Assembly (NCBI GenBank): GCA_903877645.1
Contig: CAIRES010000042.1
Span: 30,076-94,075 of the forward strand
Source: an uncultured Bacteroidota bacterium
GTDB lineage: Bacteria; Bacteroidota; Bacteroidia; Chitinophagales; Chitinophagaceae
Direction: 5' to 3'
DNA: 64,000 bases
Positions 5,952 to 31,338 of the stretch are shown here, one piece after another. The position numbers and the translations under genes were made by a program. Below the pieces are notes generated by a model. That model was not told the origin of the DNA and made no database searches. It saw only the letters and a program-made list of their open reading frames with translations. The first letter of the stretch is position 1; each line of letters begins with the position of its first letter.

Positions 5952-6052
5952 CAAAGGTGAAGCGCATTTTTGGAAACAACAATTTGAATATCTATGACAG
6001 ACGCGTACAAGTCTATGACAGCGCGGAAAGCGCGCTGTCATAAAACTTTTTT
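5952..6052 (-). promoter_or_regulatory. Composite promoter/operator of phage module A
   Basis: Read leftward: a T-run on the plus strand (6047-6052), then half-sites at 6035-6042 (CTGTCATA), 6014-6021 (TATGACAG) and 5993-6000 (TATGACAG), in exact 21-nt steps. The first two form a near-perfect palindrome around a gcggaaagc core. Nine nt further is a -33 box (ATTG, 5980-5983). After 20 nt comes a -7 box (CACCTTTG, 5952-5959). Spacing is identical to the promoter of module B. A DnaA-box-like TGTGGATAA (6054-6062) lies just outside. Confidence 0.8.
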
Positions 6053-6062
6053 CTGTGGATAA

Positions 6063-6249
6063 CGTGTATCAGTTACTTGAATTTCTATGCAATAAACATG
6101 CGCATATTATTGCTATGGCAAAGTGCCGTGGAGCGAAGTGAAAAGCAGGATGCCCCGTCATAAAATGAGTGAATTTCTTAATGCATTAAAAGAGCAAGTA
6201 CATGAAATATATTGTTTGGTATCCGGCTCAAATTCCGGCACGGCAGAGT
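6063..6249. other. Gap between module A promoter and lipoprotein gene
   Basis: No gene recognised. There is no terminator-like hairpin with a clear T-run and no further copy of the half-sites. Confidence 0.5.
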
Positions 6250-6408
6250 TCATGCAGAAGCGCTTGTAGGTGGGTGGTATCGGTGCGGGAGCAGTAGGGG
6301 ATTGTTTTTATGGTCGGGTATGATGTTGCTGGCCCGCTGATTACCGTTGCCGCAACTGGCGAAGAACAAGGTGCCAATAGCTATTGAAATGAGTGTGGTT
6401 GTGCACAT
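6250..6408 (-). CDS. Small lipoprotein, 52 residues
   Basis: Reads MCTTTLISIAIGTLFFASC and then GNGNQRASN, ending ...PPTSASA. A short hydrophobic core runs into a lipobox FASC with Cys at 19, so the product should be exported and lipid-anchored, leaving only about 34 mature residues. It lies between the module A promoter and the GNAT gene, on the same strand as module A but upstream of its promoter. No family is recognised. The lipobox makes a real gene plausible despite the small size. Confidence 0.5.
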   Translation of the reverse strand: MCTTTLISIAIGTLFFASCGNGNQRASNIIPDHKNNPLLLPHRYHPPTSASA

Positions 6409-6487
6409 GATGTGTTATAAAAATACCGCTTTATATGCGAATAGCTGCCCGGAATGGTTTGGGTACACAGGTACTTTAATAGTTTAT

Positions 6488-6495
6488 TAACTTTG
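6488..6495 (+). promoter_or_regulatory. -7 promoter box of the GNAT gene
   Basis: TAACTTTG fits the Bacteroidota -7 consensus TAnnTTTG and ends 16 nt before the ATG at 6512. No well-spaced -33 TTTG is seen. Confidence 0.5.
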
Positions 6496-6511
6496 CCGCC
6501 ATTCATTGGTT

Positions 6512-7063
6512 ATGATCGGGCAGCTAACTATATACAGGGCAGACATACAGGATATAGATATACTGGCACATTTGAGTATCAGTACATTCCGCGACGCATT
6601 TGGCCAGGCCAATACCAAGGAAGACATGGACAAGTACCTGGCCGAAGAAATGAGCCGTGAAAAGTTATACGCAGAATTGAATGACAAGGATAATTGTTTC
6701 TTTATGGTGAGTGACCATGAGCGGGTTGTGGGTTATGCCAAAATGCGCGTAGCTGATATACCTGAAGAACTTGCAGGTACTAACCCTATAGAGGTAGAGC
6801 GCATCTATGTGCTACAGGCATACCACAATAAAAAGATAGGCACTGTGCTTATGGACCACTGCATAACATTTGCCATGCATGGAGGCTATGATGTACTGTG
6901 GCTGGGTGTATGGGAGCATAACGGCGGGGCCATCCGGTTTTATGAACGCCTGGGTTTTGAGCTGTTTGGTGCACACAACTTCCTGCTGGGGAACGATATG
7001 CAGACAGATGTGCTGATGAAGAAAAAATTAAGTGGTAGTGATCATATCACTACCACTTCGTAA
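6512..7063 (+). CDS. GNAT-family N-acetyltransferase
   Basis: 183 residues from the ATG at 6512. A TTG two codons upstream is an alternative. The acetyl-CoA binding motif A region is IEVERIYVLQAYHNKKIGTV, with a Q/H-N-K-K-IG variant of the usual R/Q-x-x-G-x-G/A loop. It is followed by LWLGVWEHNGGAIRFYERLG, the classic GNAT motif B. Such enzymes transfer an acetyl group from acetyl-CoA to an amine of a small molecule or protein; the substrate cannot be read from the sequence. Its 3' end overlaps the convergent M16 gene by 22 nt. Confidence 0.85.
   Translation: MIGQLTIYRADIQDIDILAHLSISTFRDAFGQANTKEDMDKYLAEEMSREKLYAELNDKDNCFFMVSDHERVVGYAKMRVADIPEELAGTNPIEVERIYVLQAYHNKKIGTVLMDHCITFAMHGGYDVLWLGVWEHNGGAIRFYERLGFELFGAHNFLLGNDMQTDVLMKKKLSGSDHITTTS
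7030..7058. terminator. Perfect 13-bp hairpin inside the overlapping 3' ends of GNAT and M16 genes
   Basis: Stem AAGTGGTAGTGAT (7030-7042) and its exact complement at 7046-7058, with a 3-nt loop CAT. It encodes the last residues of both convergent genes and contains the stop codon of the M16 gene. It has no T-run, so it may block antisense read-through or stabilise 3' ends rather than act as a canonical intrinsic terminator. Confidence 0.55.
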
Positions 7064-8325
7064 TATGCTTTCGGGTTGAAATATTTTTGTGCCAATGCCT
7101 GTAACTCCTGTGCCGTAACGCTTTTGTATATCTGTACGTTATTATTGAAATAGTCTTCGGTAAAGCCATTTAATATAAGCGTCCGCCAGCGTTGCAGTAT
7201 AGAGAAAGGTCCATCAAGGTCGCCGAGGAGGCCGCCGAGGAGATAGTTTTTAACGAGGAGCAATTCGTCTTCGTCGGCAGCTTCGTTGCAGAGGACATCC
7301 ATTTCATGGTATATCTCTTTTATCGCCTTTTCCACAACATCCCTGCCTGTTTCTGTATGAATAACAAAAGAGCCTCCATTCAACTCGGGAGAAAGTGAAC
7401 TATAAATACCGTATGTATAGCCTTTGTCTTCGCGTATATTGCTCATCAACCGGGAGCCAAAATAGCCGCCGAACAAAGTATTAAGGACTACAAAAGGAGT
7501 GTAGTCGGGGTGGTGACGATTAGGAAATAAACTGCCTATCCGTATAGCTCCCTGTACGCCATTAGGGTCATTGCTGATGTGGTGTACCCTTTCGGTCATG
7601 GCCGGCACCTGAAAAATACCTGTGTTGACTATTTTTTTCCCTGTAGCAACCTTTCCAAAAAAATCATTCAGGTACTTTACTTCTTTATCGCCAACCTGCC
7701 CTGCCATAAAAATACGTGCATCAGCAAAATTGTAATTGTTTTTATGAAAGGCTACGAGGTCTTCGCGGGTGAGGGCTTCAATGCCTTCCTTCTTTGAGAA
7801 CCTACCATAAGGATGGTCTTCCCCAAATAACAACAGATCAATTCTTTGATTAGCTACAAACTCGCATTGGCGGAGATTGATCAGTAATCGCTGAACCGTA
7901 TTCTGCTTGTAGATGCCGAGCTCATGCTCAGGAAAAGTAGCTTCCATGATCACCTCGCGTACTATTGGCAACAGTACCGGAAGGTGTTTGGTGAGCGAGT
8001 AAAGTGTAATAGTCGTAAAATCATTGCCTGCAGACACTTTAAGCTGTGCGCCGTAAAATTCGAGCGATTCATTTATCTGTTCCGCAGTATATTTCAGCGT
8101 GCCATTTTTCAACAGCCCGGCTGTAGCTTGTGCCACAGAAGCCTTTTGTTCCTGCCACAGGCCTGCTTTAAACATCCAGTCTATTTGTACCACGTCCTGC
8201 ACACCGGCGTTCAGCCAATATACGGGCACGCCATTGTCAAGCGATATCTCATTCATTGGAGGAAGCTTGTAATCAAACGTAACGGCATCATGAATTGGTG
8301 GTACTATCTTACGATCTAATATCAT
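7042..8325 (-). CDS. M16-family peptidase homologue lacking the HxxEH zinc motif
   Basis: 427 residues with the M16 two-domain layout: the N-domain opens with ISLDNGVPVYWLNAGVQDVV, and the C-domain carries the conserved segment SRLMSNIREDKGYTYGIYS near residue 290. Where catalytic M16 enzymes have HxxEH, this protein reads SVAQATAGLLKNGT, with neither His nor Glu in place. It therefore resembles the non-catalytic subunit of a two-part M16 protease or a scaffold. No catalytic partner gene is adjacent. A role in periplasmic or cytosolic peptide turnover is inferred only; no signal peptide is visible. Confidence 0.8.
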   Translation of the reverse strand: MILDRKIVPPIHDAVTFDYKLPPMNEISLDNGVPVYWLNAGVQDVVQIDWMFKAGLWQEQKASVAQATAGLLKNGTLKYTAEQINESLEFYGAQLKVSAGNDFTTITLYSLTKHLPVLLPIVREVIMEATFPEHELGIYKQNTVQRLLINLRQCEFVANQRIDLLLFGEDHPYGRFSKKEGIEALTREDLVAFHKNNYNFADARIFMAGQVGDKEVKYLNDFFGKVATGKKIVNTGIFQVPAMTERVHHISNDPNGVQGAIRIGSLFPNRHHPDYTPFVVLNTLFGGYFGSRLMSNIREDKGYTYGIYSSLSPELNGGSFVIHTETGRDVVEKAIKEIYHEMDVLCNEAADEDELLLVKNYLLGGLLGDLDGPFSILQRWRTLILNGFTEDYFNNNVQIYKSVTAQELQALAQKYFNPKAYYEVVVI

Positions 8326-8365
8326 CTTGTATACTTAAAGTATTCTTTAAAATTTTGTTTTGCAT

Positions 8366-8881
8366 TTAAGACTTTACAAATAACGCTCTCAATTCGCCGG
8401 CATCATCTGTACTCATTTTCCCGCCTAGTATCAATCTCAATTGCCTTCTGCGCAGAGCGCCGTTATACATTTCCTTTTCGGCTTCGGTATCCGGGATCAG
8501 ATCGGGCACCTTTCTCGGACGGCCGTTAGGATCCAGCGCCACAAAGGTCATGTATGCTTCATTGGAAAGGTATTTATACTGTGCCGAAAGGTCCTCACCC
8601 CATACGCGCAGATATACCTCCATTGAGGTATTGAAAGAACGGGTAAGCTTAGCCTCTATGGTGAGAAGGTTGCCTAATTTTATAGGATTGGCAAAAGATA
8701 CATTATCAACCGATGCTGTAACTACCGGGCAATTGCAGTGTTTTTGCGATGCGATCGCTGCGGCAATGTCCATCCAATGCATGAGTTTGCCACCCATAAG
8801 GTTACCCAGCGTATTGGTATCATTGGGGAGTACCAACTCAGACATGATTACAAAAGTATCCTGTGGTTTCTTTATTTGCAT
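8366..8881 (-). CDS. Acyl-CoA thioesterase, hotdog fold
   Basis: 171 residues. The hotdog helix region LPNDTNTLGNLMGGKLMHWM is followed by AAIASQKHCNCPVVTASVDN, as in the YciA/BACH family of acyl-CoA hydrolases. The Asn/Asp in the LGNLMGG helix fits the catalytic position of these enzymes. They cleave acyl-CoA to free CoA and fatty acid in the cytoplasm. The acyl chain preference cannot be told. It lies 40 nt upstream of the M16 gene on the same strand, possibly co-transcribed. Confidence 0.85.
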   Translation of the reverse strand: MQIKKPQDTFVIMSELVLPNDTNTLGNLMGGKLMHWMDIAAAIASQKHCNCPVVTASVDNVSFANPIKLGNLLTIEAKLTRSFNTSMEVYLRVWGEDLSAQYKYLSNEAYMTFVALDPNGRPRKVPDLIPDTEAEKEMYNGALRRRQLRLILGGKMSTDDAGELRALFVKS

Positions 8882-8956
8882 GACCTAAAATTAGGGTATA
8901 TTATTTGAAGATGTCTTTATAAGGCATTAATATACTGCATCGATGAATGTAAAGCA

Positions 8957-10390: not shown

Positions 10391-10408
10391 GTTTTATAGT
10401 ATTCCGTA

Positions 10409-11575: not shown

Positions 11576-11611
11576 AAAGCTGATTTACACAAATATATAC
11601 ATGTAAATTGA

Positions 11612-17412: not shown

Positions 17413-18237
17413 TTAGTCGAGCGGTATTATTGTGTTGAACTCAAGACCATAGCCCAGGACAGATACGTCTGGCTTGATCCAATTGATATATACGTCTCCA
17501 GTAGTATTAACAGCACTATTGACTTGTTTTATCCAAGCTACTCCCAGATCGTCTTCTATCATACCAGATATAAAGTAGATTGATGTAAAAAAGGTATTAT
17601 TATTCGGCCTATACCCTACAGGTAACGTACACATTAATGAATATGTCGCGGAAGGAGATGCCGCAAAATTCTGCGCATTACTCGCAGTCAAAAAACCTCT
17701 GATCTGCAATGTATTCGCCATCATGTCTTTTTTGTAAAAAATAGTTCCGGTAACACCGCCGCTTGGGGCGGGTGTACTCACCGCAGTAGAATTCCAGGTT
17801 GTTTCGCGGCCGTTTTGTCCAAAAGCCACCTGGAAGGGCTGCAATAAAGAGAGCGGGAATTGTGTAGCGCTCGTTACCGAAGGGCCTACTGATACTACCG
17901 CTGTCTTATTAAGCACTGCACCATAGGTACTACCATCGTTGTAAGTGAGGTTAGCAGCAGTGGGCGTGATGTTGACCAGCACCACATCACCAAAACCAAG
18001 CGCCGAATAAGTACTCGGAAGGAATTTGATCATTTCGCCGTTATAAAAAAACCAGCCGCCGGCCACGGTAGTCACCCCTAATGAAAAGCTCTGGCTCATA
18101 CCGGTGATTAATGTGGGGCCTGCACCTCCCATCACAGCAATGGCATTGATACATTCTGTATAGGCTTGTTGTAAATAATCCAGTTCGTCCTGCGTGAGCG
18201 GGAATCCTCCGGTATGTGTGAAGTCAATTGCTTTCAT
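17413..18237 (-). CDS. Probable tail fibre / receptor-binding protein
   Basis: 274 residues. It starts with a short attachment-like region (FTHTGGFPLTQDELDYLQQA), followed by Gly/Ser/Thr-rich beta-structured sequence with YNGEMIKFLPSTYSALGFGD. The last part holds a YKKDMMANTLQIRGF segment and a compact C-terminal domain typical of fibre tips. It is the last gene of module B, downstream of the baseplate genes, which is where contractile phages carry the fibre gene. The target receptor is unknown. Assignment depends on position and composition. Confidence 0.6.
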   Translation of the reverse strand: MKAIDFTHTGGFPLTQDELDYLQQAYTECINAIAVMGGAGPTLITGMSQSFSLGVTTVAGGWFFYNGEMIKFLPSTYSALGFGDVVLVNITPTAANLTYNDGSTYGAVLNKTAVVSVGPSVTSATQFPLSLLQPFQVAFGQNGRETTWNSTAVSTPAPSGGVTGTIFYKKDMMANTLQIRGFLTASNAQNFAASPSATYSLMCTLPVGYRPNNNTFFTSIYFISGMIEDDLGVAWIKQVNSAVNTTGDVYINWIKPDVSVLGYGLEFNTIIPLD

Positions 18238-18282
18238 AGTATTTATTTGAGATGATAAAAGGTTAAAGATCCGGGTTGTGTA

Positions 18283-18786
18283 TTAGTAGGTAACGACTGA
18301 ATAATTACTTCTTCCGGGCAGTCTGTATTTATCTGTCAGTGCCCTGAGATGCGCCAAATCAAAGACAACCGCAGATGGGACATGTATAATAAAGCATATA
18401 CCCAGGAAGTAGGTCTCTGCTTCTGTATATAGCCATTCGGGATCAGGATAGGAAGTGCTGCCTTCTTCACTCACGAGCCCGAGCCATACAGGTTTCACTT
18501 CGGGCACAGTATACAGAAACAGTGGATCCCTGAAAGGGCCGTCTGTGATATATATTCCCCTGCCGATGTTATCAAAAGCATCATTGAGCACAGCTTCCAG
18601 GTAGCAGACTTGTCCATCATGAGCCAGTACGTAAAGGTTAGACGACCTGTTGGCACTAAATATATCGTAAAGCCATTTCACAGGCGCTACAAGGCATTTC
18701 AGCCATGCTATCATTATATCTTTCCTTAGCTGTACCGGCAGTACCTGCAGCACCAAGTCATCGTAGTTTATATCAAACAATCCCAT
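18283..18786 (-). CDS. Baseplate-associated protein at the gpI / Mu gp48 position
   Basis: 167 residues. The start MGLFDINYDDLVLQVLPVQL resembles the N-terminus of small phage baseplate proteins that join baseplate J to the fibre. A helical KDIMIAWLKCLVAPVKWLYD and a beta-rich C-terminal half follow. I do not recognise a named family with certainty. It lies between the J-like gene and the fibre gene, matching the gpI/gp48 place in Mu-like clusters. Confidence 0.5.
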   Translation of the reverse strand: MGLFDINYDDLVLQVLPVQLRKDIMIAWLKCLVAPVKWLYDIFSANRSSNLYVLAHDGQVCYLEAVLNDAFDNIGRGIYITDGPFRDPLFLYTVPEVKPVWLGLVSEEGSTSYPDPEWLYTEAETYFLGICFIIHVPSAVVFDLAHLRALTDKYRLPGRSNYSVVTY

Positions 18787-18825
18787 CTTAGAAATTTTTT
18801 ACGGTTCTACATTTTATTCAGGCAA

Positions 18826-19656
18826 CTATACTGTATAAGGCACATAACTAACATGAGCTGCAAACCAGGTAGCATCAAGCACCAGGTATCCGGCATCGGG
18901 CGTGTATTGCGTGGTGATCACTACAGGTGGTATAGATCCATAGAATGCCTGTACACTTACTTCATCAGCAATGATCACCCCATCTATATCCTGCATAGCT
19001 GTTACAAAATTGTTGAGAATAAATACCCCGTTAAATGGCAGGTTAGCAAGGAAAGCATTGATAGTATCCTTAACAGGTGTAAAAGTTGTTCCATCAAGTC
19101 TCGCACCGGTGCTGTCCAATACAAGCGGATCATAGTAGATCACCAACGTCGGCTGAAAAGTATCAGCAGGGCCACTGGTGCATTGCAACCGGACACCAGC
19201 ATCTTTTATTCGCCCCATGTAAGTAGTAAATGCAGCCAATTGTGGTGTACTTAATGCAGCTAATGACCCGGCGGCCCCGGTAGCAGCCTTTATTCTGACG
19301 AGATTTGTTAATTCGATGGCGGCAGCGTAAGTCACTACAAGGCTTGGATCACCGGCAGATACCACCGGGTCATACACATCGCTTCCGGATGGTAGTGTTG
19401 CCCCGTATTGGAATGCCCTGGACATGATCACGTACCATTGCAAGGTGTGGGGTTTTTGTGTGGCTATGATGCTGTTCACCTCAGTTACGTGGTCATCATA
19501 TAGTACCTCAAGTGTCCAGTGGCAAAAAGCCACTACGTACGTCCACAGGTACCATATAGCTACCGCGCTGGTGCTGGTAAGCAACGGGCCTAATGTTATA
19601 TCAGCTGTTTTTGCATCTACTATACTTTGCTGTATCTGCGCTATTGTTCTTGCCAT
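18826..19656 (-). CDS. Baseplate J-like protein
   Basis: 276 residues. The N-terminal half (MARTIAQIQQSIVDAKTAD, then HTLQWYVIMSRAFQYG) is the pattern I associate with the Bacteroidota phage gene lying between the LysM-like baseplate protein and the gpI-like gene. The C-terminal half (VKDTINAFLANLPFNGVFIL, then IADEVSVQAFY) is like the wedge-forming C-domain of gpJ proteins. It is shorter than Mu gp47 (about 360). Position supports a baseplate wedge role; the exact family needs a profile search. Confidence 0.6.
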   Translation of the reverse strand: MARTIAQIQQSIVDAKTADITLGPLLTSTSAVAIWYLWTYVVAFCHWTLEVLYDDHVTEVNSIIATQKPHTLQWYVIMSRAFQYGATLPSGSDVYDPVVSAGDPSLVVTYAAAIELTNLVRIKAATGAAGSLAALSTPQLAAFTTYMGRIKDAGVRLQCTSGPADTFQPTLVIYYDPLVLDSTGARLDGTTFTPVKDTINAFLANLPFNGVFILNNFVTAMQDIDGVIIADEVSVQAFYGSIPPVVITTQYTPDAGYLVLDATWFAAHVSYVPYTV

Positions 19657-19718
19657 GATTTCATTATTTCAGCACGGGTTCCGCACTTGTTTTTTTAAAA
19701 ATATTTCTTTGTTTGCCA

Positions 19719-20702
19719 CTACCGCACTTCTACTACACACTGCATACCTGATCCTGGTAAAATGCCTCCTGTATAATTGTAGTTGCCAAGTACACCAAAT
19801 GTATAAGTGCCGGCAGCCAGCGTACAACAGAGTTTATTAGGGTTCGTAGGGTCAGCAGGATCGGGACCAAGGCTTGTGATCCCGGCACCCCCCAGTATTG
19901 CATCGTCCCGCCAAATCATGCTATTAACCGTTAATCCGGTAAGGACAGGAGTATAATGACCCCTCGTAAGGCGTACCACTACCCCACCTGGTACTGAACT
20001 TACTAACGTTACATCTAACGACGGCACCAGGAACTCTTTAACCGCTTGGGTAGTTGCATCAAGTATGATCACAGGAGTGCAACGAGCCTGGTTGCCATTT
20101 ACATCTTCAAACGTGGCCAGGGACGCCGGATCTAAGGTGCCGAAAACGATCATATAACTGTGACCGGCAGTCCATGGTATTTTATAAGCAATACTTTCCA
20201 ATGACATATCAGTGGCTACAAGTTCATTTGCAGTAGCCGATACTCCTCCCAGGAGGTCTGCAGTTATATGGTGTACCGTATTAGGCTCACTGGGATAACT
20301 CCCTACACCAGAGACCAGGCCATAAACCGATATGAAACCTGTGTCCCCATCCACACTGAACTGATAATTGTGGATAATTGAAGGTGCGCTTGCGGTAGTA
20401 GGTACAGCCTTAAGTATTGGCATCAATATGATTTCCATAGTTAATGGCGGTGGTGGCGTGAAAGCAAGTGTCCCTATCACATAACCATTCTGGTTGAGGT
20501 ATCTGCATACATAGGCACCCGCTGAACCTGCTGCAGATATGCATGTATCACTTATTCTGTATACATTTCCCACAGCGGGCATATCACTTATTGAGACATT
20601 ATTATCCCGGCAAAATTGCGCAGCCCCTTCCAATGATCCACATCCCATGATGATCACATCCTGCATACTCTGGTTTGGCTTTACTATTATAGTGGTACTC
20701 AT
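19719..20702 (-). CDS. Baseplate protein with N-terminal LysM-like segment
   Basis: 327 residues from the ATG at 20702. A longer start at 20717 (MKRLI...) is less likely. The first 60 residues read TIIVKPNQSMQDVIIMGCGS, then LEGAAQFCRDNNVSISDMPAVG, which follows the LysM pattern seen in tail proteins that contact peptidoglycan or the baseplate hub. The rest is beta-rich with Ig/FnIII-like spacing. It lies between gp25-like and J-like genes. Penetration or hub stabilisation is inferred. Confidence 0.5.
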   Translation of the reverse strand: MSTTIIVKPNQSMQDVIIMGCGSLEGAAQFCRDNNVSISDMPAVGNVYRISDTCISAAGSAGAYVCRYLNQNGYVIGTLAFTPPPPLTMEIILMPILKAVPTTASAPSIIHNYQFSVDGDTGFISVYGLVSGVGSYPSEPNTVHHITADLLGGVSATANELVATDMSLESIAYKIPWTAGHSYMIVFGTLDPASLATFEDVNGNQARCTPVIILDATTQAVKEFLVPSLDVTLVSSVPGGVVVRLTRGHYTPVLTGLTVNSMIWRDDAILGGAGITSLGPDPADPTNPNKLCCTLAAGTYTFGVLGNYNYTGGILPGSGMQCVVEVR

Positions 20703-20745
20703 AATTAATCTTTTCAAACTCTATTAATAAGATGAACAATCGGCA

Positions 20746-21045
20746 TTAAGGGTAATATGCGTCAGTATTGATCATACCAGCCTGATCGAGAAGAATTCGC
20801 TTTACATTCATTCCGTCTCTGGTAAACTCCACACTAATAGCCCTGATCAATTCCTGCAAATGCTCATCATCAAAGTATTCAAATGCGCCAACACAAAGCG
20901 TAGGGTTTTGCTTGAAGTCACCCTTATTATTGAGGATCAGCTGCTTTTGGTGTTGGGCCGTACTTTCGGAGTATGTGAAGTCGCCGGCTGTTATTGCGGT
21001 ATCGGCATTATCTGTAAGTGCTATGTCTATCATTTTAGTTGCCAT
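20746..21045 (-). CDS. Baseplate wedge protein, GPW/gp25-like
   Basis: 99 residues. Segments DFTYSESTAQHQKQLILNN and GDFKQNPTLCVGAFEYFDD match the gp25/GpW lysozyme-like wedge family found in all contractile tails. The C-terminus FTRDGMNVKRILLDQAG fits as well. The protein joins the sheath to the baseplate. It sits 5 nt from the spike gene. Confidence 0.7.
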   Translation of the reverse strand: MATKMIDIALTDNADTAITAGDFTYSESTAQHQKQLILNNKGDFKQNPTLCVGAFEYFDDEHLQELIRAISVEFTRDGMNVKRILLDQAGMINTDAYYP

Positions 21046-21050
21046 GGTTG

Positions 21051-21620
21051 TTAGTGTTTTATGGTGGTGTCTTCAATACTACTATAGCTACCTAATGAAT
21101 CAGTAGCTATTGCCAGCTGTAATTTGGCTTGCAATGCACTTGGTGCTCCGCTTCCGGGTTCATCAATAGGCACTCCGTTGATTACAGCAATTAAGTGGCT
21201 AAGCAGCGTGGTCGTTTTATCCAGTTGTGTCTTCAATTCCGGTGTGATCGTAAGTCCACCATGGCTACCATTATTAAATTGAATCAACCCATCTGTCACT
21301 GTCACTTTGCTCGATCCTAATAGGACGGACACCCTCGCCAGATCGCTTGCTTTTAGCAGCGTCCATTCACCCGGCCCGTCTATACTACCGATGATCACAT
21401 TACTATTGTCTTGCGGTAGTAGCACGACACCGTTCTCGTCGTTTGTGATCGCATTCAGTAGCACGCCTTCAATCGCTTCGGAGCCATCGCTGGGCAGTAC
21501 AGCCATAGTGTACATTGTCGCATCTACGCTACCTGCTACTACCGTTCCGCTGATGATCTCGTAGGGCCTATGCGTTAGCTCCCGGATACCTTTTCTAATT
21601 TTATCTGTATTCTTTGTCAT
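21051..21620 (-). CDS. Baseplate spike protein, gpV / Mu gp45-like
   Basis: 189 residues. An OB-fold-like first part (RPYEIISGTVVAGSVDATMY) is followed by GVVLLPQDNSNVIIGSIDGP, then a short repeated beta section and a helical tail. Spike proteins tip the inner tube. No PAAR gene is seen; the C-terminal TTIKH is not a metal-tip motif. The gene overlaps the end of the hub gene by 1 nt, indicating translational coupling. Confidence 0.6.
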   Translation of the reverse strand: MTKNTDKIRKGIRELTHRPYEIISGTVVAGSVDATMYTMAVLPSDGSEAIEGVLLNAITNDENGVVLLPQDNSNVIIGSIDGPGEWTLLKASDLARVSVLLGSSKVTVTDGLIQFNNGSHGGLTITPELKTQLDKTTTLLSHLIAVINGVPIDEPGSGAPSALQAKLQLAIATDSLGSYSSIEDTTIKH

Positions 21621-22657
21621 TAGCTGTTGTTATTAGCAAATCCTAACTGCGGCCCTATCCCTATTATTCTTCTTGCGCCTGCGGTGCCAAAATGAACTTC
21701 CATATCTTCGATGATGTAGGTTCCATTGCGTTCGGGGTATCTGTCGTCACTTATATAAGCGGTATAACCGGGGATAGTGTATGGCTGCAAAAAGGTATTG
21801 ATACTGCCTTCATATCCTGCATAATTTTTCCTGTATACGGTTTCATTAGCCAGTTGCTTCAGCGCAATTGCATCTGCAACATGGTTGAGTATCTTTTTGT
21901 GGGTGCGAACAAATTTCTTGAAGGCATCAGATGTCCCTGATAACTTATCCCCGTTACCGAGCTTCTTTGAATATTCTACCTGCACGGGGTCATTCTCAGT
22001 TGTTCGTTCTTTCAGGTCATTTGACTTTAGCAGGTTGTACCCCAGGCGATAGTTGACTGTACCTATATTTAAAACATCGGTTCCTTTTGCATAAGGCGTG
22101 TACAATATTCCACACCACAATACTCCCGGCTTTATAAAAAAGCAAGACAAGCTGCCGTCTGTATATTTCGACAGGCTGTTAATGACATCTAAACCACAGC
22201 CGGATACGCCCACATTGCTTAGGGTAATATCAATGTCGCATTGCACGCTGATGGTGTGCTTGCCATCTATACCGGAAACAGCGTCCGTCAAAAGGTCCTT
22301 TATAGTGACCGATGGATAGAATTTATCTATAGTATTCCTCCGCAACAGCCAGCTATATCCTTCGCACTCTACCTCCATCGGCATACTTAGGCTGCATCTT
22401 TTCACAAAGCCCGTAAACTCTGTTTGCAGGTCATTATTATAGCCCAGCTTTATAGTTACCGGATCTCCATCCGAAAATTGCTTGCCGGTAATAACCACAT
22501 CAGGCAACACAGAGCCTTTAGTTACCACTCTTGCTATAGAAGGTATTTTTATGGTGGCTGTCTCCATTATGCTATGTAGACTCCGGCTAATGCTAATCTC
22601 ATTAACACCATTGAATCTGAAGTTGCCAATCGTAATATCACTTACAAGTACAAACAT
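21620..22657 (-). CDS. Tail hub protein, late control gene D / Mu gp44-like
   Basis: 345 residues. Motifs include ISISRSLHSIMETATIKIP, VTIKLGYNNDLQTEFTGFVK and a later conserved WLLRRNTIDKFYPSVTIKDL. This fits the gpD/gp27 hub family shared by myophages, T6SS VgrG and contractile injection systems. It forms a trimer that connects tube and spike. Length is typical. Confidence 0.75.
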   Translation of the reverse strand: MFVLVSDITIGNFRFNGVNEISISRSLHSIMETATIKIPSIARVVTKGSVLPDVVITGKQFSDGDPVTIKLGYNNDLQTEFTGFVKRCSLSMPMEVECEGYSWLLRRNTIDKFYPSVTIKDLLTDAVSGIDGKHTISVQCDIDITLSNVGVSGCGLDVINSLSKYTDGSLSCFFIKPGVLWCGILYTPYAKGTDVLNIGTVNYRLGYNLLKSNDLKERTTENDPVQVEYSKKLGNGDKLSGTSDAFKKFVRTHKKILNHVADAIALKQLANETVYRKNYAGYEGSINTFLQPYTIPGYTAYISDDRYPERNGTYIIEDMEVHFGTAGARRIIGIGPQLGFANNNS

Positions 22658-23325
22658 TATGATATGGATATAAGGTTAAAAGGTTCGTCGCTAACAAGAT
22701 GCAATTCGTATGGCCGTACGTTTTTGACACCTGTGATAGACGGAAATATCAATTCTTTGATCACCACCTGGTCGCTGCCACTTCTGTCTGGCCTTAACAG
22801 GAATATATCTGTTAAAGGGCATTGAATAGATAAAGCTATGTTTTGCTCATACAGGTCGCGCAGGATTGTTACATCTGCTTCCGGAAATTCATTTGTGTTG
22901 CTGATGATAAAACCCTTGACAACTATTTCGTAGTCCTGGATGTTTATTAATTCTTTCACCGTTCCACGTCTTTCCGTTAAAGGAGTTTCAATGATCGTCT
23001 TTCTCGAAGTGATGGAAATGACCGGGTACGGCAACCACCAATCTTTTAGCAATCCCAAATTATCGCTCCCTGCCAGTAAAGCATCTTCGCTATTTAGCTT
23101 TGCATCATCGGGGTAGGTCACTTTTATTGGCATGAAGTATTCCCTGCCATTGGCATCATTGCCATAATAAGCGCTGCCCTGCGAGCCACTATCTGTTCTG
23201 CGAAGCGCGCTTGCATTCAGGCTATTATCGTTAGGTACAGGTTGAAACTGCGGATCGAACGCCTGGGTCTTGTAGCCAAATGCTTGTTCAAACAGATCGG
23301 CCAGGTCAAATGTTATCTCTGCCAT
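22657..23325 (-). CDS. Tail protein, DUF6046-like
   Basis: 222 residues. It contains GREYFMPIKVTYPDD and WWLPYPVISITSRKTIIETP, then RRGTVKELINIQDYEIVVKG. This pattern is typical of the Bacteroidota phage protein family DUF6046, which sits between tape measure and hub. A role in joining tube terminus and hub is plausible from position. It overlaps the hub start by 1 nt. Confidence 0.65.
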   Translation of the reverse strand: MAEITFDLADLFEQAFGYKTQAFDPQFQPVPNDNSLNASALRRTDSGSQGSAYYGNDANGREYFMPIKVTYPDDAKLNSEDALLAGSDNLGLLKDWWLPYPVISITSRKTIIETPLTERRGTVKELINIQDYEIVVKGFIISNTNEFPEADVTILRDLYEQNIALSIQCPLTDIFLLRPDRSGSDQVVIKELIFPSITGVKNVRPYELHLVSDEPFNLISIS

Positions 23326-25778: not shown

Positions 25779-25965
25779 TGGTATTGACATTTCTATTCGT
25801 CAGCGCGATACTCCATCTCCTGTATATATTGTAAATGCGAAAGCTTTTGTGCGAAAGCTTTATCACTTAAAGAACGATGATCAAGCCCCGGTAGATAGTA
25901 CTCAAGTATTGTTTCGAGATATCCTAAGGAATCGTGCGCAGGGCCGCCGCGCGACTCCTCTATAA
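25735..25965 (+). CDS. Doubtful small reading frame downstream of the secreted cargo gene
   Basis: 76 codons (start MKKIKLARILMLIS) overlapping the end of the previous gene in another frame. The first residues overlap that gene's coding sequence; the part after 25780 has ordinary protein composition (IRQRDTPSPVYIVNAKAFVR). It could be a real small gene or the tail of the preceding protein after a frameshift. No homology is recognised. Confidence 0.2.
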   Translation: MKKIKLARILMLISSGIDISIRQRDTPSPVYIVNAKAFVRKLYHLKNDDQAPVDSTQVLFRDILRNRAQGRRATPL

Positions 25966-26283
25966 GTTTACCAGGGTAGCCTTTTTGCCATCCAGTTTTT
26001 CTTTGAGCTCCTGTGCTACGCCTATAAACATCTGGTCGTCTTTGAGTATCTCTTCGCTGCCACCTATAAAAGTAACATTGGCCAGCTCTTCAAAAACATT
26101 CAGCGCTTTATCTCTTTCGGATTTGCTCAGGGCGCAGTTCAGCTCATTCCTGCCCGGGTTTTTAAAATACCCTATATGTCCGTCTACGGCTATGGCGTAA
26201 ATGCCATACTTATACTTGGCTTTCCACTCTGTTATCTGGGGTTCGGTAGCCTGCCCTGTTAGTGTATTGTTGTTGGTCGACAT
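25960..26283 (-). CDS. Probable tail assembly chaperone
   Basis: 107 residues. The sequence WKAKYKYGIYAIAVDGHIGY, then FKNPGRNELNCALSKSERD and ALNVFEELANVTFIGGSEEI, resembles Bacteroidota phage proteins coded between tail tube and tape measure. In contractile phages that position is held by the tape-measure chaperone. I see no obvious slippery heptamer for a frameshifted longer form. Confidence 0.5.
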   Translation of the reverse strand: MSTNNNTLTGQATEPQITEWKAKYKYGIYAIAVDGHIGYFKNPGRNELNCALSKSERDKALNVFEELANVTFIGGSEEILKDDQMFIGVAQELKEKLDGKKATLVNL

Positions 26284-26325
26284 TTTCAGTTAATAATTTA
26301 GTGATTTAAAATGGCATGAGATTTA

Positions 26326-26757
26326 TTATGCAGTTTCCAGTTTCAGGAAAACAATAGGAAGGGTCACGTCCATGTTCTTTGCACCCTGCTCCCATCCTTT
26401 TTCAAAATCTTTTACTTCCACATTCATTAATGTGTCTGTCTGCAATGGCCTTGTTCCTTTGGGCTTGTAAGTGATGATGATGTCGAATTGCATATCTAGT
26501 ATGTCGTCGCCACCTGCTGCTATAGCTGCGCGGTTCATATCATCTATTGCGCCCTTCAGCACTTTTATCTGGCCTTCGTAGCTTCTGTTGCCGCTTTGTA
26601 TGCTTATCGGCTCATCGCCGGCGGCATGCAGCAATTGTTTTTCTTTCGCGGCTTTATATTTTACCCCGCGTATCTTGGTGAGTGGCGACCCGGCAAATAT
26701 TACCGTCATATCGGCCCACTCACAATCTTTACTGTCAAAAAATGGTATTGATGGCAT
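26326..26757 (-). CDS. Tail tube protein
   Basis: 143 residues from the ATG at 26757 (MPSIPFFDSKDCEWADMTVI). An upstream start would add 10 unlikely residues. The pattern TVIFAGSPLTKIRGVKYKAA with LHAAGDEPISIQSGNRSYEG is characteristic of Bacteroidota tube proteins: short beta-barrel, conserved GxPI...G..SY.G loop. The tube hexamers stack inside the sheath. It lies 66 nt downstream of the sheath gene, the usual order. Confidence 0.75.
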   Translation of the reverse strand: MPSIPFFDSKDCEWADMTVIFAGSPLTKIRGVKYKAAKEKQLLHAAGDEPISIQSGNRSYEGQIKVLKGAIDDMNRAAIAAGGDDILDMQFDIIITYKPKGTRPLQTDTLMNVEVKDFEKGWEQGAKNMDVTLPIVFLKLETA

Positions 26758-26822
26758 GGAATAGTGTATTATGATGTACAATATCATGTACTGTATGATC
26801 GGGTTAAAAAATATTTAGGGAA

Positions 26823-28004
26823 CTACTGTGCAGGATTATCAAAGCCAAGGCTTATTTCTATGTCTGTGGCATATCCCACCGGTGTTACGGTCAGCACTAC
26901 ATTCAACTCGTTGGTACTCAGGATATTTTGTGCAGGATCTATAAAGCAGCTAATTGCGCTTATTTCCCTGTTGGCGGTCATAGTATTATTCACCTGGTTC
27001 ACGATCTGTTGGCTCAGCCACTTGCAAAAGCCAGCATCCAGTGTACCATCGGCATTAACAGGTACTTCGTCATCTATCTCCTGCACAAATGTGGTGTAGG
27101 CCAGTATATGGGCTTTATCTATCACCCTGCCGCGTGCCAGCATACAATAGTCATCGGTGGTGGCAGTAAGCATTGGGTCACCACTAAAGAAATACCCGCT
27201 TACGTTGGGGTAAGTAATGAAGGTAATAAACCCTTTACCCGCTATCACTGAGGCATCACCGCCACTTTCTTCAAGAGTCGTAGAATTCAGAAACGCAGTA
27301 GTATTGGTTAGCGCACCGGATCTCACCCTGCTAATTTTTCTTTGCACGGGTATCGATGCTGCTACCCCCAGCAGCAGGCCCACACATGCGGCATGGCCGC
27401 TCACAGTATCACCTATCAATATAGCGGTACGGTTATTGGTTGTTCCAGTTGTTTCATCCGTAAGGCCGGATGGAGTCCCTGCATAAGAGCTGCCGCCTAT
27501 CACGCACCTGAATGGCTTTTCTGCGTCAAAGTATGCTGCTGCCATTACCGCCATGTTGCTTGCTGCAGTATATACATCGGCATTCAGCGAGTGTGTTACC
27601 GTTATAGTGCCGCCACCGCTGGCTACGGCTACATCATCACTCAGCAATCCCAGCAATTTTATCTTGCCGTTGGCATAATCCAGCAATTTTTTTGCGCCAT
27701 TAAGGTTGGTATGGTCTGCCATCTCTGCTATTGTTACAGATGCGGCTGTCAGCATCAGGTACAGTTGTGCGCCATCGCCTGCCTGGTCATAAAACTCCTG
27801 TAGTTGTTTTATGGCAAAGGGGTTAAAGGTTTCCGTTATACCCGCATTGGCTACATCTGTCATGCCGGTTACTAGTATTGGCGTACCGGTGGTATAGCCA
27901 CCGCTCTCGGTAACGCCGGTCAGTACCATACCGGCTATACCGTCATTCGTTTGGATCGTTCCTCCAAGCTGGCAGTTGGCCAGCGTAATATTTACACTTC
28001 CCAT
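26823..28004 (-). CDS. Tail sheath protein, DUF2586-like
   Basis: 393 residues. The N-terminus has MGSVNITLANCQLGGTI and GIAGMVLTGVTESGG. The C-terminal third includes ILAYTTFVQEIDDEVPVNAD and ANREISAISCFIDPAQN, with a beta-strand end used to link sheath subunits. DUF2586 is the sheath family of many Bacteroidota Mu-like elements. The sheath contracts to drive the tube into the target cell. Length is typical and no frame disruption is seen. Confidence 0.75.
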   Translation of the reverse strand: MGSVNITLANCQLGGTIQTNDGIAGMVLTGVTESGGYTTGTPILVTGMTDVANAGITETFNPFAIKQLQEFYDQAGDGAQLYLMLTAASVTIAEMADHTNLNGAKKLLDYANGKIKLLGLLSDDVAVASGGGTITVTHSLNADVYTAASNMAVMAAAYFDAEKPFRCVIGGSSYAGTPSGLTDETTGTTNNRTAILIGDTVSGHAACVGLLLGVAASIPVQRKISRVRSGALTNTTAFLNSTTLEESGGDASVIAGKGFITFITYPNVSGYFFSGDPMLTATTDDYCMLARGRVIDKAHILAYTTFVQEIDDEVPVNADGTLDAGFCKWLSQQIVNQVNNTMTANREISAISCFIDPAQNILSTNELNVVLTVTPVGYATDIEISLGFDNPAQ

Positions 28005-28031
28005 TGTTGGTTTTGTTTTTTGAATCTGTTA

Positions 28032-28271
28032 TTATTCTGCATCGTATTCATCGTACGGGTCTGCTAAAAGGTCATTTTCAGGATCGTAGTTGGCCAGTTC
28101 TTCCAGTTCAGTATCTACTTCTTCCCTGGTCATAGTAGTTATCTTTCGGTCTTGCAGGCCTTTCGCGTGGTTTATTGCATTCTGTTCTTCAAAGAACGCC
28201 AGGTTATCGCTGGTGAAGTAGAGCTTATCTGTGCGTACGTGGTTGTCGAAATGTGATCTTGCATTTTTCAT
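28032..28271 (-). CDS. Small acidic phage protein of unknown role
   Basis: 79 residues, start MKNARSHFDNHVRTDKLYFT, with an acidic C-terminus (YDPENDLLADPYDEYDAE). It lies between the 145-residue helical gene and the sheath gene. Similar short acidic proteins are common at this point in Bacteroidota phage clusters, but no function is known to me. Confidence 0.55.
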   Translation of the reverse strand: MKNARSHFDNHVRTDKLYFTSDNLAFFEEQNAINHAKGLQDRKITTMTREEVDTELEELANYDPENDLLADPYDEYDAE

Positions 28272-28335
28272 GAGCTTGGTTATTCAATTGATTGGATTTA
28301 AAGAGGCTGGGGGAAATATATCTTGTACTGCATTA

Positions 28336-28773
28336 TTATGAGCCTGTCTTTGAAGCCGAGTATTTAGCTTGCGTGTACAGATCATACAGGCTTTGTTTAA
28401 GGCGCTGGCCATCCAGCGTACCTGCCAGAAGGCTGGCCAATTTTTGCAATACTGCATCCTGCAATAGCGGATCGCGCTGTTGTAGCTGTTGCACAAAGCA
28501 GGACAGCTTATCGTTTGCATCGGTATATTGCTTGCAGGTATCGGCTATGGTTAGCGCATCTATTACTTTCGTTAACGCTGCTACCAGTTCCTGGCGTATC
28601 TCATCATCCAGCTCGCCGGGTATGATGGCTGTGATGACATTTGCCGCAGGTGAGGAAAGCATTGATTTAAGCGCCGATGTTATTTGCAGGGCTGTATCTA
28701 TATGCCCGTCTATATAATTATCAAACTCTTTGAGCAATGCCTTTACCTGTGTCTTTAGTTTTGAACAGAACAT
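28336..28773 (-). CDS. Helical protein in the head-tail interval, unknown
   Basis: 145 residues, nearly all helix. It includes ALKSMLSSPAANVITAIIPG, then ELDDEIRQELVAAL and KLASLLAGTLDGQRLKQSLY. The pattern with ...AIIPGELDDEI is like small Bacteroidota phage proteins encoded next to holin-like genes, but no catalytic or membrane motif is clear. It follows the XhlA-like gene by 13 nt and probably works with it. Confidence 0.5.
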   Translation of the reverse strand: MFCSKLKTQVKALLKEFDNYIDGHIDTALQITSALKSMLSSPAANVITAIIPGELDDEIRQELVAALTKVIDALTIADTCKQYTDANDKLSCFVQQLQQRDPLLQDAVLQKLASLLAGTLDGQRLKQSLYDLYTQAKYSASKTGS

Positions 28774-28785
28774 AGTTATTTGGTT

Positions 28786-29064
28786 TTATTGTTGGTGGTT
28801 GTTTTGTATCACACTTGTTTCCAGTGTGTGTATGCGTATAGAATGCTCACTGAGGCGGCGGTGTATCAAGGCATCCTGCTCCTGTAGCCCTTTTATCTGC
28901 TGGCCTTGTATCGTTGTTGCGCGGGTCAGTTGCTTCAGCTCCAGCACTATATCATCCAGCCGTTTAATGACCTGGCCTGTTACCACTTTCATGATAAAGC
29001 CCAGTATAGTAGCCATAATACCCGCCACCCCAATAAGTATCCATATTTTAATTTCAGAGACCAT
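28786..29064 (-). CDS. Holin-like / XhlA-like membrane protein
   Basis: 92 residues: one transmembrane helix (IWILIGVAGIMATILGFIM) followed by a long amphipathic coiled coil (KRLDDIVLELKQLTRATT, then LIHRRLSEHSIRIHTLE). This layout matches small hemolysin XhlA/holin-partner proteins. It could release particles or anchor them at the membrane. No endolysin is found near it. Confidence 0.5.
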   Translation of the reverse strand: MVSEIKIWILIGVAGIMATILGFIMKVVTGQVIKRLDDIVLELKQLTRATTIQGQQIKGLQEQDALIHRRLSEHSIRIHTLETSVIQNNHQQ

Positions 29065-29114
29065 ATCTCTTTATGTAAGTTGTTAAATGAACCGTTGATC
29101 CATTAATCGCATAT

Positions 29115-30029
29115 TTACGCTGCGGCCTGCACTATTGATATGATGCCCTTGCCATCGGCACGGCGTATCCTTGCACCCATACGCACACTCACGCTATATA
29201 CATCGCCATACAATGTAGGGTCGCCTATACGCTCAAAGAAGGTGATCTGTCCCAGCGCCCTTTCTACTGCGCCTATCTGCCAGCACAGTACGCCGTCATT
29301 GTCGGTTGCGTTGGCTGCGCTGCCATAAGGGTTTACAACGGGTGTGCTGTCGTTGGTATAGGTAACTACACCCCCACGCATCATTATATTGAAACCAAAG
29401 AGCCTGCCCAGTACACCATCTTTTACGTTGTATGCCGCGCTGAAATCGCGGTACTGTGTTACGCTCATGTCATCTGTCAGTTGCTGAAACATATCTGCAC
29501 TGATGAGTGCGTACCTGCCTTCCATAGGCACGTTCTGTTTGTTCAGTTGCAACTGTGCGTTCTTCAGGTCAACCACCGTAAAACGGCAGCGGTTGCCGGT
29601 AGTGCCGGCAAGTGTGGTAGCCGTCGAAGACCCTGTGGTACGCACTATTGTGCCTACACCACCTGTGGGTGCCCAGTCTATCAGCAGGTTATCGGCCACT
29701 GTTTGCCTCAGCGAAGACTCATACTCACCCAATACACTTTCGCGCTTGTTGTAGCTCAGTTCATACGCTTCAGCATTAGGGATCAGTATCGGGTCTGTGG
29801 TAAACTCATCCAGTGCGTAGGTGATGTCCGAGTCTGTACGCTGCACTACTGTTGCCGGCAGGCTGGTTCTGTTTTTTACTACGTTGGCTGTTGCCCCTGC
29901 TTGTGGTATATGCACTACATGCCCCTGCAATACATACTGCCCAACGTCTGTTGATGCCAGTAAGAACTCATTGTTCTTAAATAGGTTTCCTTCGATGTGG
30001 TCTTGCCAGATCTCTTTTTGGATTGCCAT
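29115..30029 (-). CDS. Major capsid protein
   Basis: 304 residues. The HK97-type order is an N-arm (MAIQKEIWQDHIEGNLFKNN), an E-loop region rich in Thr/Asp (TDSDITYALDEFTTDPILIP), the spine-helix region VVDLKNAQLQLNKQNVP, and a C-terminal P-domain strand (FFERIGDPTLYGDVYSVSVR). The protein would form the icosahedral head. It follows the protease gene after a gap of 187 nt and precedes the holin-like gene. No frame disruption is seen. Family read by pattern. Confidence 0.75.
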   Translation of the reverse strand: MAIQKEIWQDHIEGNLFKNNEFLLASTDVGQYVLQGHVVHIPQAGATANVVKNRTSLPATVVQRTDSDITYALDEFTTDPILIPNAEAYELSYNKRESVLGEYESSLRQTVADNLLIDWAPTGGVGTIVRTTGSSTATTLAGTTGNRCRFTVVDLKNAQLQLNKQNVPMEGRYALISADMFQQLTDDMSVTQYRDFSAAYNVKDGVLGRLFGFNIMMRGGVVTYTNDSTPVVNPYGSAANATDNDGVLCWQIGAVERALGQITFFERIGDPTLYGDVYSVSVRMGARIRRADGKGIISIVQAAA

Positions 30030-30216
30030 TGTTTACTTGTTTTTGGTTAAAAATTTGAAGATGAATGAAATAGTGGGTGGGATACGGCTATTAAAGACAT
30101 AGCCATTTAATGCCCCGGCCGGAGCGATATACTTACTACAGTATAGAATAGAAAACTACAAGGCCTTACCAGGTCAGAAGAACAGCGCACCCGGCCTGCT
30201 TAAAAGGGAATGGAAA

Positions 30217-31209
30217 TTATGCTGCAAACTTTTTCTCAAACAGTTCTTTATATCTTATTGCGTCATTAGCCTTCAGATCTTTCAGCTTTTTGCCTGTGGG
30301 GTCGTTTGTTTCGTAATCATCCCACTGCCATTGCGCTTCGGTCTTATCCTGCTGCCTGCTTTTTAGTTGCTCAGTTATAGACCTGTATGCGGGCATCACT
30401 GCCAGTAGTTCTTTTAAGCCATCGGGGTTTAGGGCATAGTCGTGGGCCAGTTTTTCTTTCAGTACTACTGTTATCTTTTTATCTTCCAGTGCGCGGTCCA
30501 GTGTGGCTGCGATCTCGTATTGGCCATGTGCCGCTTTAAGGTCAGTGATCTGTTGCTCCAGTGTTTGCCGGTCATTACTTAGTGTAGCATTTTCCAGTTC
30601 CAGTGCATTTGTCTTTGCTGCCATGCTTTGTACTGTAGCCAATATTGTATTGTTGTCTGTTTCATCTGCCAGTTGCAATAGATGGCGCAGCTCATGGGCT
30701 ATATTTTGTTGCAGTGCCTTTATTACGGGTGGCATTATGCCCAGGTCCACGAGGTTCAGCTCATTTTCCTGTGCGTCATACAGCCTTGTAAGTGCATTGC
30801 AGTTGCCAGGTATATCCACCAGGCTACATTCTTTGTTGTACCACTTGGTGATGGTGGGGCCGGTTTGGCCGGGCAGCATCAGCTCGGGGTCTGTGCTGTA
30901 TTCCAGTACTACTATATGCCCTACCGATGCCGCATTCAAAAAGCCATTTTCGGCCTCATCGCATAGCTGCACACCTCTTGCATTAGATAGGTTGATCACC
31001 GGCACGCCCACCACCTGGTCGTCTTGTATTTGCAGGTCTTCCCATTTCAGCGCTATGCCATCTTCCCTGCGGTGCATATAATAGCCTATGGGGTTTTTCT
31101 TAAAGGCCGGTAGCTGGTAGCCCGATGTGAGCAATCTGAACCCGTACTCATTTACTGTACTGTCCGATAGCACATATTGCCTGTCAATTTTCTTAAATTT
31201 GTCTGTCAT
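30217..31209 (-). CDS. Prohead protease with fused scaffold-like coiled coil (Mu I-like)
   Basis: 330 residues from the ATG at 31209 (MTDKFKKIDRQYVL). The N-terminal 165 residues have candidate His in YYMHRREDG and Ser in KECSLVDIPGNCNAL, the pattern of S78/U35-type prohead proteases. Residues 185-250 form a coiled coil (ALELENATLSNDRQTLEQQI), followed by a helical tail ending in LFEKKFAA. This layout is like Mu gpI, where the scaffold is the C-terminal part of the protease. First gene of module B; its ATG is 28 nt from the -7 box. Confidence 0.7.
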   Translation of the reverse strand: MTDKFKKIDRQYVLSDSTVNEYGFRLLTSGYQLPAFKKNPIGYYMHRREDGIALKWEDLQIQDDQVVGVPVINLSNARGVQLCDEAENGFLNAASVGHIVVLEYSTDPELMLPGQTGPTITKWYNKECSLVDIPGNCNALTRLYDAQENELNLVDLGIMPPVIKALQQNIAHELRHLLQLADETDNNTILATVQSMAAKTNALELENATLSNDRQTLEQQITDLKAAHGQYEIAATLDRALEDKKITVVLKEKLAHDYALNPDGLKELLAVMPAYRSITEQLKSRQQDKTEAQWQWDDYETNDPTGKKLKDLKANDAIRYKELFEKKFAA

Positions 31210-31236
31210 GATAGGGATTATCGTTGTTTGATGGCA

Positions 31237-31338
31237 CAAAGATGAAACGGATTTTGGAGCCGGTCAAATCGTGTTTCTATGACAGCGCGCTTTCCGCGCT
31301 GCCATAGTCACCGGCTGTGCTGTCATAGATCTTTTTTT
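31237..31338 (-). promoter_or_regulatory. Composite promoter/operator of phage module B
   Basis: Read leftward: T-run (31332-31338), then half-sites at 31320-31327 (CTGTCATA), 31299-31306 (CTGCCATA) and 31278-31285 (TATGACAG), again in exact 21-nt steps. Nine nt further is a -33 TTTG (CAAA on plus, 31265-31268). After 20 nt comes the -7 box CATCTTTG (31237-31244). Palindrome core gcgctttccgc. All distances equal those at 5952-6052. Transcription should start near 31230, giving a leader of about 22 nt. Confidence 0.8.

Follow-up and report, generated by a model that had tools for sequence, protein, structure and literature searches.

A composite promoter-like element with three phased half-sites before two Mu-like phage modules in an uncultured Chitinophagaceae bacterium

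Results and discussion

Composite elements before the two phage modules

The sequence analysed here (the window) is a stretch of 64,000 nt from an uncultured Bacteroidota bacterium of the family Chitinophagaceae (assembly GCA_903877645.1, contig CAIRES010000042.1, positions 30,076–94,075 of the forward strand). It has two groups of phage genes on the minus strand, modules A and B, each preceded by a composite promoter-like element, termed site A and site B. Site A leads into genes for a TerS-like protein, the large terminase TerL, protein A186, an adaptor and a portal. Site B leads into genes for a protease, the capsid protein, a contractile tail (sheath and baseplate hub) and several distal genes. 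The elements of the two sites, in window positions, are as follows.

5993–6000, 6014–6021 and 6035–6042 (array 5993–6042), minus strand: three half-sites of site A at 21-nt steps, by direct reading and as an exact match in the genome search
5980–5983, minus strand: presumed -33 box of site A, ATTG (CAAT on the plus strand)
5952–5959: presumed -7 box of site A, CAAAGGTG, which is CACCTTTG on the minus strand
5949–5959, minus strand: the same presumed box with the following bases, CACCTTTGTGC
6047–6052, minus strand: A-tract past the outer half-site of site A (T-run on the plus strand), where the 46 promoters described below have A-rich columns
6054–6062, minus strand: 9-mer TTATCCACA, past the A-tract, upstream of site A
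31278–31285, 31299–31306 (one mismatch) and 31320–31327 (array 31278–31327), minus strand: three half-sites of site B, by direct reading and genome search
31265–31268, minus strand: presumed -33 box of site B, TTTG (CAAA on the plus strand)
31237–31244: presumed -7 box of site B, CAAAGATG, which is CATCTTTG on the minus strand
31234–31244, minus strand: the same presumed box with the following bases, CATCTTTGTGC
31332–31338, minus strand: A-tract of site B (T-run on the plus strand)

An earlier note on this DNA proposed that the two modules share a composite promoter with the same geometry. Direct reading of the window letters agrees with that description base for base, including all positions and the one half-site mismatch. 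Both sites have, on the minus strand, the order A-tract, half-site, 13 nt, half-site, 13 nt, half-site, 9 nt, [A/T]TTG, 20 nt, CA[C/T]CTTTG, TGC, and all four spacers (13, 13, 9 and 20 nt) have the same length in both. Sites A and B carry the middle half-site in opposite orientations. The Bacteroidota sigma-A promoter consensus consists of a -33 TTTG and a -7 TAnnTTTG about 20 nt apart. The -33 box and the spacing of the two sites fit this consensus, and the first base of the -7 box is a C in both, a departure that the note had also described. No alignment between A and B was found (plus strand, E 1e-3), which leaves a duplication of A into B as the sole origin unsupported. Single half-sites show no enrichment in the window (at ≤1 mismatch, 64 matches against 54 expected).

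The open reading frame (ORF) list gives TTG at 31239 as the start of the protease gene. This start falls within the -7 box of site B, so the ATG at 31209 is the likelier one. The overlap was missed by the earlier note, as were the 9-mer at 6054–6062, a third site in the window and the inheritance of the modules with the host.

Sites across the genome

The pattern TATGACAG-N34-CTGTCATA (≤1 mismatch) is present at 11 places in the genome, compared with none for the reversed control; the array thus exceeds chance, and a chance array is ruled out. With 3 mismatches allowed, the pattern and its control have 26 matches each, so weak matches alone carry no meaning. When 116 other genomes of the family were searched at ≤1 mismatch, four had one match each and the control gave three with one each; the array sequence of this genome was in none of the 116.

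At least 17 sites of the same build are found genome-wide (L and G numbers are our handles for loci and genomes). Thirteen have three half-sites in exact register plus a core, and were obtained by a search at ≤3 mismatches followed by reading of the sequences; the other four have the middle half-site off by a base (window 40645, L012, L014 and L015). The core boxes of the 13 are CA[C/T][C/T]TTTG in seven, TACCTTG in one and ACCTTTA-like in five. Two of the 17 sites precede the structural modules and three precede orphan TerS-like genes (one interrupted), which leaves 12 without an intact TerS-like or capsid gene directly behind. According to the earlier note, recovery of just the two modules with a handful of further sites would define the regulon; a regulon restricted to the two modules is ruled out by these numbers. 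The third site of the window is one of the four with a shifted middle half-site.

40645–40735, plus strand: third window site, facing right, with half-sites at 40645, 40665 and 40687, TTTG at 40704–40707 and GACCTTTG at 40728–40735, found with 3 mismatches and then read

Its 9- and 20-nt spacers are preserved, and its half-site steps are 20 and 22. A 90-aa ORF at 40788 with no Pfam match is behind it (40645–41060). Elsewhere, arrays with an ACCTTTA-like core stand before unrelated or distant genes (L018, L025–L028) and are possibly decayed copies. A separate promoter-like family of 11 sites near TTGGAGCGTATT...ACCTTTGTG was also seen in this genome (L217, L219, L221, L222, L225, L230, L231, L234–L237). 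It has no array, most members share an upstream stretch, and mostly only short ORFs are downstream.

Geometry and half-site drift in relatives

An exact half-site search in the 116 other genomes was unproductive because the half-site letters drift, a difficulty solved by anchoring on the core. Anchoring used the core only and not the array. Of 115 upstream regions, 81 were anchored and 34 had no acceptable anchor; 46 promoters were counted (35 terS and 11 protease, the two window rows included), and 35 anchored rows were left out as lying outside a pre-listed clade or cut by a contig end. Core conservation in the 46 is partly by construction, since anchors were selected for core-like letters. 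The window register (offset 41, step 21) ranks first among 660 offset-step combinations. Its score is 9.65, where the median is 5.5, and the neighbouring phase, 40/22, reaches 9.43. This register, together with the joint drift of A and B half-sites described below, bears out the earlier claim of a shared composite promoter-like region that is more than a recent duplication. At 41/21 the middle half-site and an outer one match in at least 6 of 8 letters in 27 of the 46 promoters (22 of 35 terS, 5 of 11 protease).

The half-site letters vary by lineage, e.g., TATGGTGG in Flavipsychrobacter stenotrophus (isolate RB1R16, L144) and L147, and TATGATAG in L130. Within a genome they agree: the A-B half-site distance is 2.30 within and 3.84 between genomes (permutation p=5e-5, 11 genomes, kinship uncorrected). 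Nineteen other arrays, picked for clarity, share 7-mers at 0.32 with the terS array of their own genome and at 0.075 with those of others (p=5e-5, 10 genomes, kinship uncorrected). Of 14 relative genomes searched for a second half-site pattern, TATGATAG-N13-CTATCATA, nine have 1–15 sites each and five have none; the control gave one match. The geometry thus recurs before terS and protease genes in relatives, where letters drift yet agree within a genome.

The 9-mer TTATCCACA beside site A resembles a DnaA box. A similar 9-mer (≤1 mismatch) past the A-tract was found in 19 of 35 terS promoters and 1 of 11 protease promoters among the 46. That it is common before terS genes and not before protease genes suggests a possible link to DnaA or replication state.

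Gene content of the modules

3860–5395, minus strand: large terminase TerL (phrog_38, E 1.3e-72)
5450–5902, minus strand: terS-like gene, first in module A (Terminase_5, phrog_4151; AlphaFold model pLDDT 91, helical, with a start like a helix-turn-helix, HTH)
3202–3762, minus strand: A186, kept in relatives, no family match
2723–3157, minus strand: Mu gp36-like head-tail adaptor (PF07030, phrog_195)
859–1980, minus strand: Mu-type portal (PF06074, E 1.4e-61)
30217–31209, minus strand: Mu-like protease, first in module B, ATG start by inspection (PF10123, phrog_11321, phrog_328)
29115–30029, minus strand: major capsid protein (phrog_267, PF19821)
26823–28004, minus strand: tail sheath, DUF2586 (PF10758, phrog_907)
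26326–26787, minus strand: B153, probable tail protein, matching both phrog_9206 (named major head protein) and phrog_4579 (tail)
21620–23325, minus strand: two baseplate hub genes (phrog_4930, phrog_5233; DUF6046)
17413–21620, minus strand: distal module B genes, six ORFs, five without a PHROGs match

Phage head, tail and packaging genes are thus all represented (TerL, portal, protease, capsid, sheath and hub). Fold searches with the models of the module A TerS and of an orphan TerS-like protein gave no match at E 0.001 or better, and the orphan model is poor (pLDDT 65); TerS is therefore assigned from sequence profiles and gene order. A 135-aa ORF with several hydrophobic stretches lies between the adaptor and portal genes of module A on the other strand (2015–2422, plus strand). 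It recurs at the same place in many relatives with 24–44% identity and has no Pfam match. Its product could be a membrane or lysis protein.

Host setting and inheritance

Modules A and B are 25 kb apart among carB, mreB, mreC and clpX. Between them are an ORF labelled gnat by eye, an M16 peptidase gene, a thioesterase gene, carB, mreB and mreC; an AAA gene, clpX and thyA are to the right of site B. With the TerS-like genes on other contigs, the system occupies several separate chromosomal loci.

TerL relatives are present in 19 of 117 family genomes, this one included. In a scan of named genomes, of which the best 80 of 167 loci were kept, the closest TerL loci are from Flavipsychrobacter, Taibaiella and further Bacteroidetes or Chitinophagaceae. 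Gene order was compared at 67 loci. Module B was not seen over at least 8.8 kb upstream of terS in L130, L135, L136, L137, L144, L145, L149, L152, L156, L158, L161, L162, L163, L172 and L173. The gap between protease and terS genes is ~2–6 kb in L132, L138, L141, L147, L148, L150, L153 and L154, and ~0.5 kb in L140. The neighbours of module A in L156 and L161 are those of the window (carB, two ORFs, thioesterase, M16, gnat, terS), and in L191 the end gene of module B has MreB-MreC-H183 next to it. Judged from contig numbers or positions that match, carB and module A are on one contig, ~7–69 kb apart, in at least 11 of 26 genomes (G119, G122, G123, G127, G129, G130, G136, G138, G139, G140 and G146).

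Trees were compared for this genome and the 26 of 30 genomes that had a usable carB locus. TerL and carB distances are correlated (Spearman 0.60, p=2e-4, 27 genomes), and the two trees have 11 of 24 splits in common; in 200 label shuffles the mean was 0.26 and no shuffle exceeded 3. The test for purifying selection was confined to TerL and the TerS-like genes among the phage genes, and used the ratio of nonsynonymous to synonymous substitution (dN/dS). For TerL it is 0.04–0.09 in all seven pairs, two of which have dS >2. For carB it is 0.006–0.019 (5 pairs with usable dS), and TerL is thus constrained, although less than carB.

Two marks of a Mu-like transposable prophage, a transposase and one contiguous genome, were not found for the modules. 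A search with PF09299 did not recover its own controls and performed poorly in relatives (3 of 24), whereas one with a real transposase sequence as query succeeded. With this query, no Mu-type transposase turned up in the genome studied here, nor in 16 of 18 clade genomes; the search did not extend to other recombinases or to replication genes. The query matches 11 of 14 genomes with free prophages, where the gap between transposase and TerL is 11–15 kb in the six in which contig and accession numbers agree. Matches are also present in G133 and G142, where both kinds of locus occur. Modules A and B are host loci inherited largely with the host, and not one prophage. Contigs L084–L088 in the viral collection IMG/VR have TerL proteins 59–70% identical to that of module A, and may be chromosomal modules rather than viruses.

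The TerS-like gene family

Orphan TerS-like genes are found behind three array sites (L020, L021 and L022). The frame in L021 stops early, and related residues continue in a separate ORF. A profile made from five orphan proteins matches 20 of 20 clade genomes with 2–15 matches each, module A TerS included where scored; G133 has only two weak matches. The orphans are full-length relatives of TerS, since the profile comparison with the module A protein spans 140 columns with a probability of 99.7%. In the first 150 codons of TerS-like genes dN/dS is 0.04–0.12 in seven of eight pairs and the eighth is saturated; several pairs are same-genome paralogues. Approximately 13 of 30 orphan loci fetched have a clear array as judged by eye, with an anchor score that made use of the palindrome (two of the 30 gave no row). 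A common C-terminal tail is present in 6 of the 30.

Within one genome the presumed recognition helices of TerS paralogues differ, yet the half-site type is the same. This argues for a regulator separate from TerS. A second argument, from an h1 helix that is alike in G000 and G123, is weak because the half-sites of these genomes differ by one letter only.

Interpretation

The array with its [A/T]TTG and CA[C/T]CTTTG boxes is probably, although by no means certainly, a late promoter shared by the parts of a dispersed, domesticated Mu-like phage, which would make a particle like a gene transfer agent (GTA). The same array and core are seen before modules A and B and TerS-like genes here, and with other half-site letters in relatives. 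From regulator binding onwards, we infer the steps. One trans-acting regulator, separate from the TerS proteins, would bind half-sites two helical turns apart and recruit RNA polymerase to a core with a -7 box off consensus. In modules passed on largely with the host, with TerL under purifying selection and the transposase of free relatives not found, switching on the regulon would then yield contractile-tailed capsids that package chromosomal DNA. In the ancestor, terS and protease genes probably diverged from a single control region, the arrangement seen in free relatives, and a split of the modules would have left each with one array.

Several observations weigh against this explanation. 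Of the 12 sites without an intact TerS-like or capsid gene directly behind them, many have a diverged core. These 12 go part of the way toward what the earlier note named as contrary evidence, the pattern upstream of many unrelated genes, and this is softened by several of the twelve that keep the 3' end of a TerS-like element. Fewer than 6 of 8 letters match in 19 of the 46 promoters (weakest are the terS promoters of L140, L173, L141 and L158), L140 shows no A-B agreement (distance 6.5), four of the 19 arrays are closer to another genome's, and the half-site permutation tests take no account of kinship. In addition, 13 of 24 TerL splits are absent from the carB tree, and two clade genomes (G122 and G126) have a transposase-like match. 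The interpretation given in the earlier note is partly supported overall.

An alternative that we regard as possible, though a good deal less probable, is that the arrays are parts of a dispersed, self-copying repeat family consisting of terS and its flanks. Many sites can be aligned over their flanks, from about -110 to +100, and the within-genome similarity of arrays could therefore stem from copying or gene conversion with no shared regulator. The sites without genes are also as expected of such a family: L019, L023, L024 and L026 retain a 3' block that resembles the end of TerS-like elements, in some copies with 10-nt repeats. G119 has one 29-bp palindrome on several contigs, often close to a contig end. 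Site A, however, has only 31–34 nt in common with two other sites and none with site B at the threshold used, yet every spacing is kept. The geometry also survives letter drift, and purifying selection acts on the first 150 codons of the TerS-like genes.

It is unlikely that the elements are plain late promoters of a decaying Mu-like prophage. Late promoters of Mu are activator-dependent and driven by C, and serve separate late operons, one of which begins at the protease gene. The portal, protease and adaptor are of Mu type, and three-half-site arrays are directly upstream of terS in eight phage-like loci (L080, L094, L096, L097, L103, L119, L183 and L192), although any array was found in only 26 of 145 loci scanned under that rule and some of these are coding repeats. 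The position of the modules among carB, mreB, mreC and clpX, 25 kb apart, with neighbours conserved in other species, the tree agreement and the low dN/dS have already weakened this explanation.

Slightly less likely again is that the array is a binding site of TerS, packaging signal and operator in one. Packaging (pac) sites are often in or near terS, TerS-like genes follow site A and the three orphan sites, and the half-sites are phased at two helical turns. Site B, on the other hand, precedes the protease gene with no terS nearby, paralogues with differing presumed recognition helices go with one array type per genome, and the array is at a fixed distance from the core. A 10-nt repeat near GGAAAGAATC or GGTAAGAATG is present at six loci, five of them array sites (reversed control, 4 matches), but was not seen behind the three G123 orphans read, which disfavours a general pac role. 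A tailocin-like particle without DNA, which the contractile sheath and baseplate hub could form, is very improbable given that TerL, portal, protease and capsid are all retained and TerL is strongly constrained.

Relation to known systems

The late-promoter explanation would place the modules beside the alphaproteobacterial GTAs (RcGTA and CcGTA), which likewise consist of phage structural and packaging genes, descend with the host and are spread over several separate loci (PMC11841831). Further marks of a GTA are the packaging of random host DNA in amounts too small to carry the genes of the particle, the absence of replication or integration genes of its own, and production under a host-encoded regulator. 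Caulobacter GafY binds the GTA promoter, its own promoter and 18 further sites (PMC11150451); one activator for a GTA cluster and many accessory promoters is the same kind of layout as the sites described above. The present system, with its putative particle, differs in its Mu-like contractile-tailed ancestor, Bacteroidota host and three-half-site promoter. It also has a TerS with an HTH-like start and a family of terS genes. RcGTA TerS lacks the N-terminal DNA-binding HTH domain, a lack that its authors link to random packaging (PMC6854486). The retained HTH-like start, seen in the AlphaFold model of the module A TerS, and the Terminase_5 matches weigh against the GTA comparison, and the system is for this reason not classed as an RcGTA-type GTA. 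Among the top matches of the open-access literature there was no Bacteroidota GTA. In Bacteroides, lateral transduction by a phage has been reported, and in other gut bacteria packaging of a GTA-like kind (PMC12946183).

Like the late promoters of Mu, the elements would serve separate late operons, one starting at the protease gene, and may depend on an activator; unlike them, they have three half-sites at 21 nt and a Bacteroidota-type core, and the modules are not one prophage. No paper turned up in a literature search for late promoters in Mu-like phages of Bacteroidota. Mu-like prophages of Sphingobacterium, Flavobacterium and others (among L181–L209) have related terL, portal, protease and capsid genes, and some have repeat arrays between divergent modules. 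They differ in that most have a Mu-type transposase nearby and one region between the modules. Phage-inducible chromosomal islands also have a TerS of their own that is switched on along with the late genes of a helper, whereas no helper is shown here. Integrase, regulator and replication genes are typical of such islands, and no search aimed at their companion genes was made.

The most surprising part of the system is that TerS with an HTH-like start is kept and multiplied under what is probably one switch. A speculative extension, which we consider rather doubtful, is a particle with a repertoire of packaging adaptors: one switch for the capsid and for scattered small terminases with differing DNA-binding helices would let packaging start at chosen chromosomal sites rather than at random. 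Orphan terS genes with 10-nt repeats would then be the smallest selfish elements that redirect packaging, and the copies without a gene would be what is left of such elements. Should the particle exist, Bacteroidota have domesticated a contractile phage of Mu type, and the promoter would provide a sequence handle on both the regulon and its regulator. The TerS family under the same promoter would make it testable whether such particles choose the DNA that they package.

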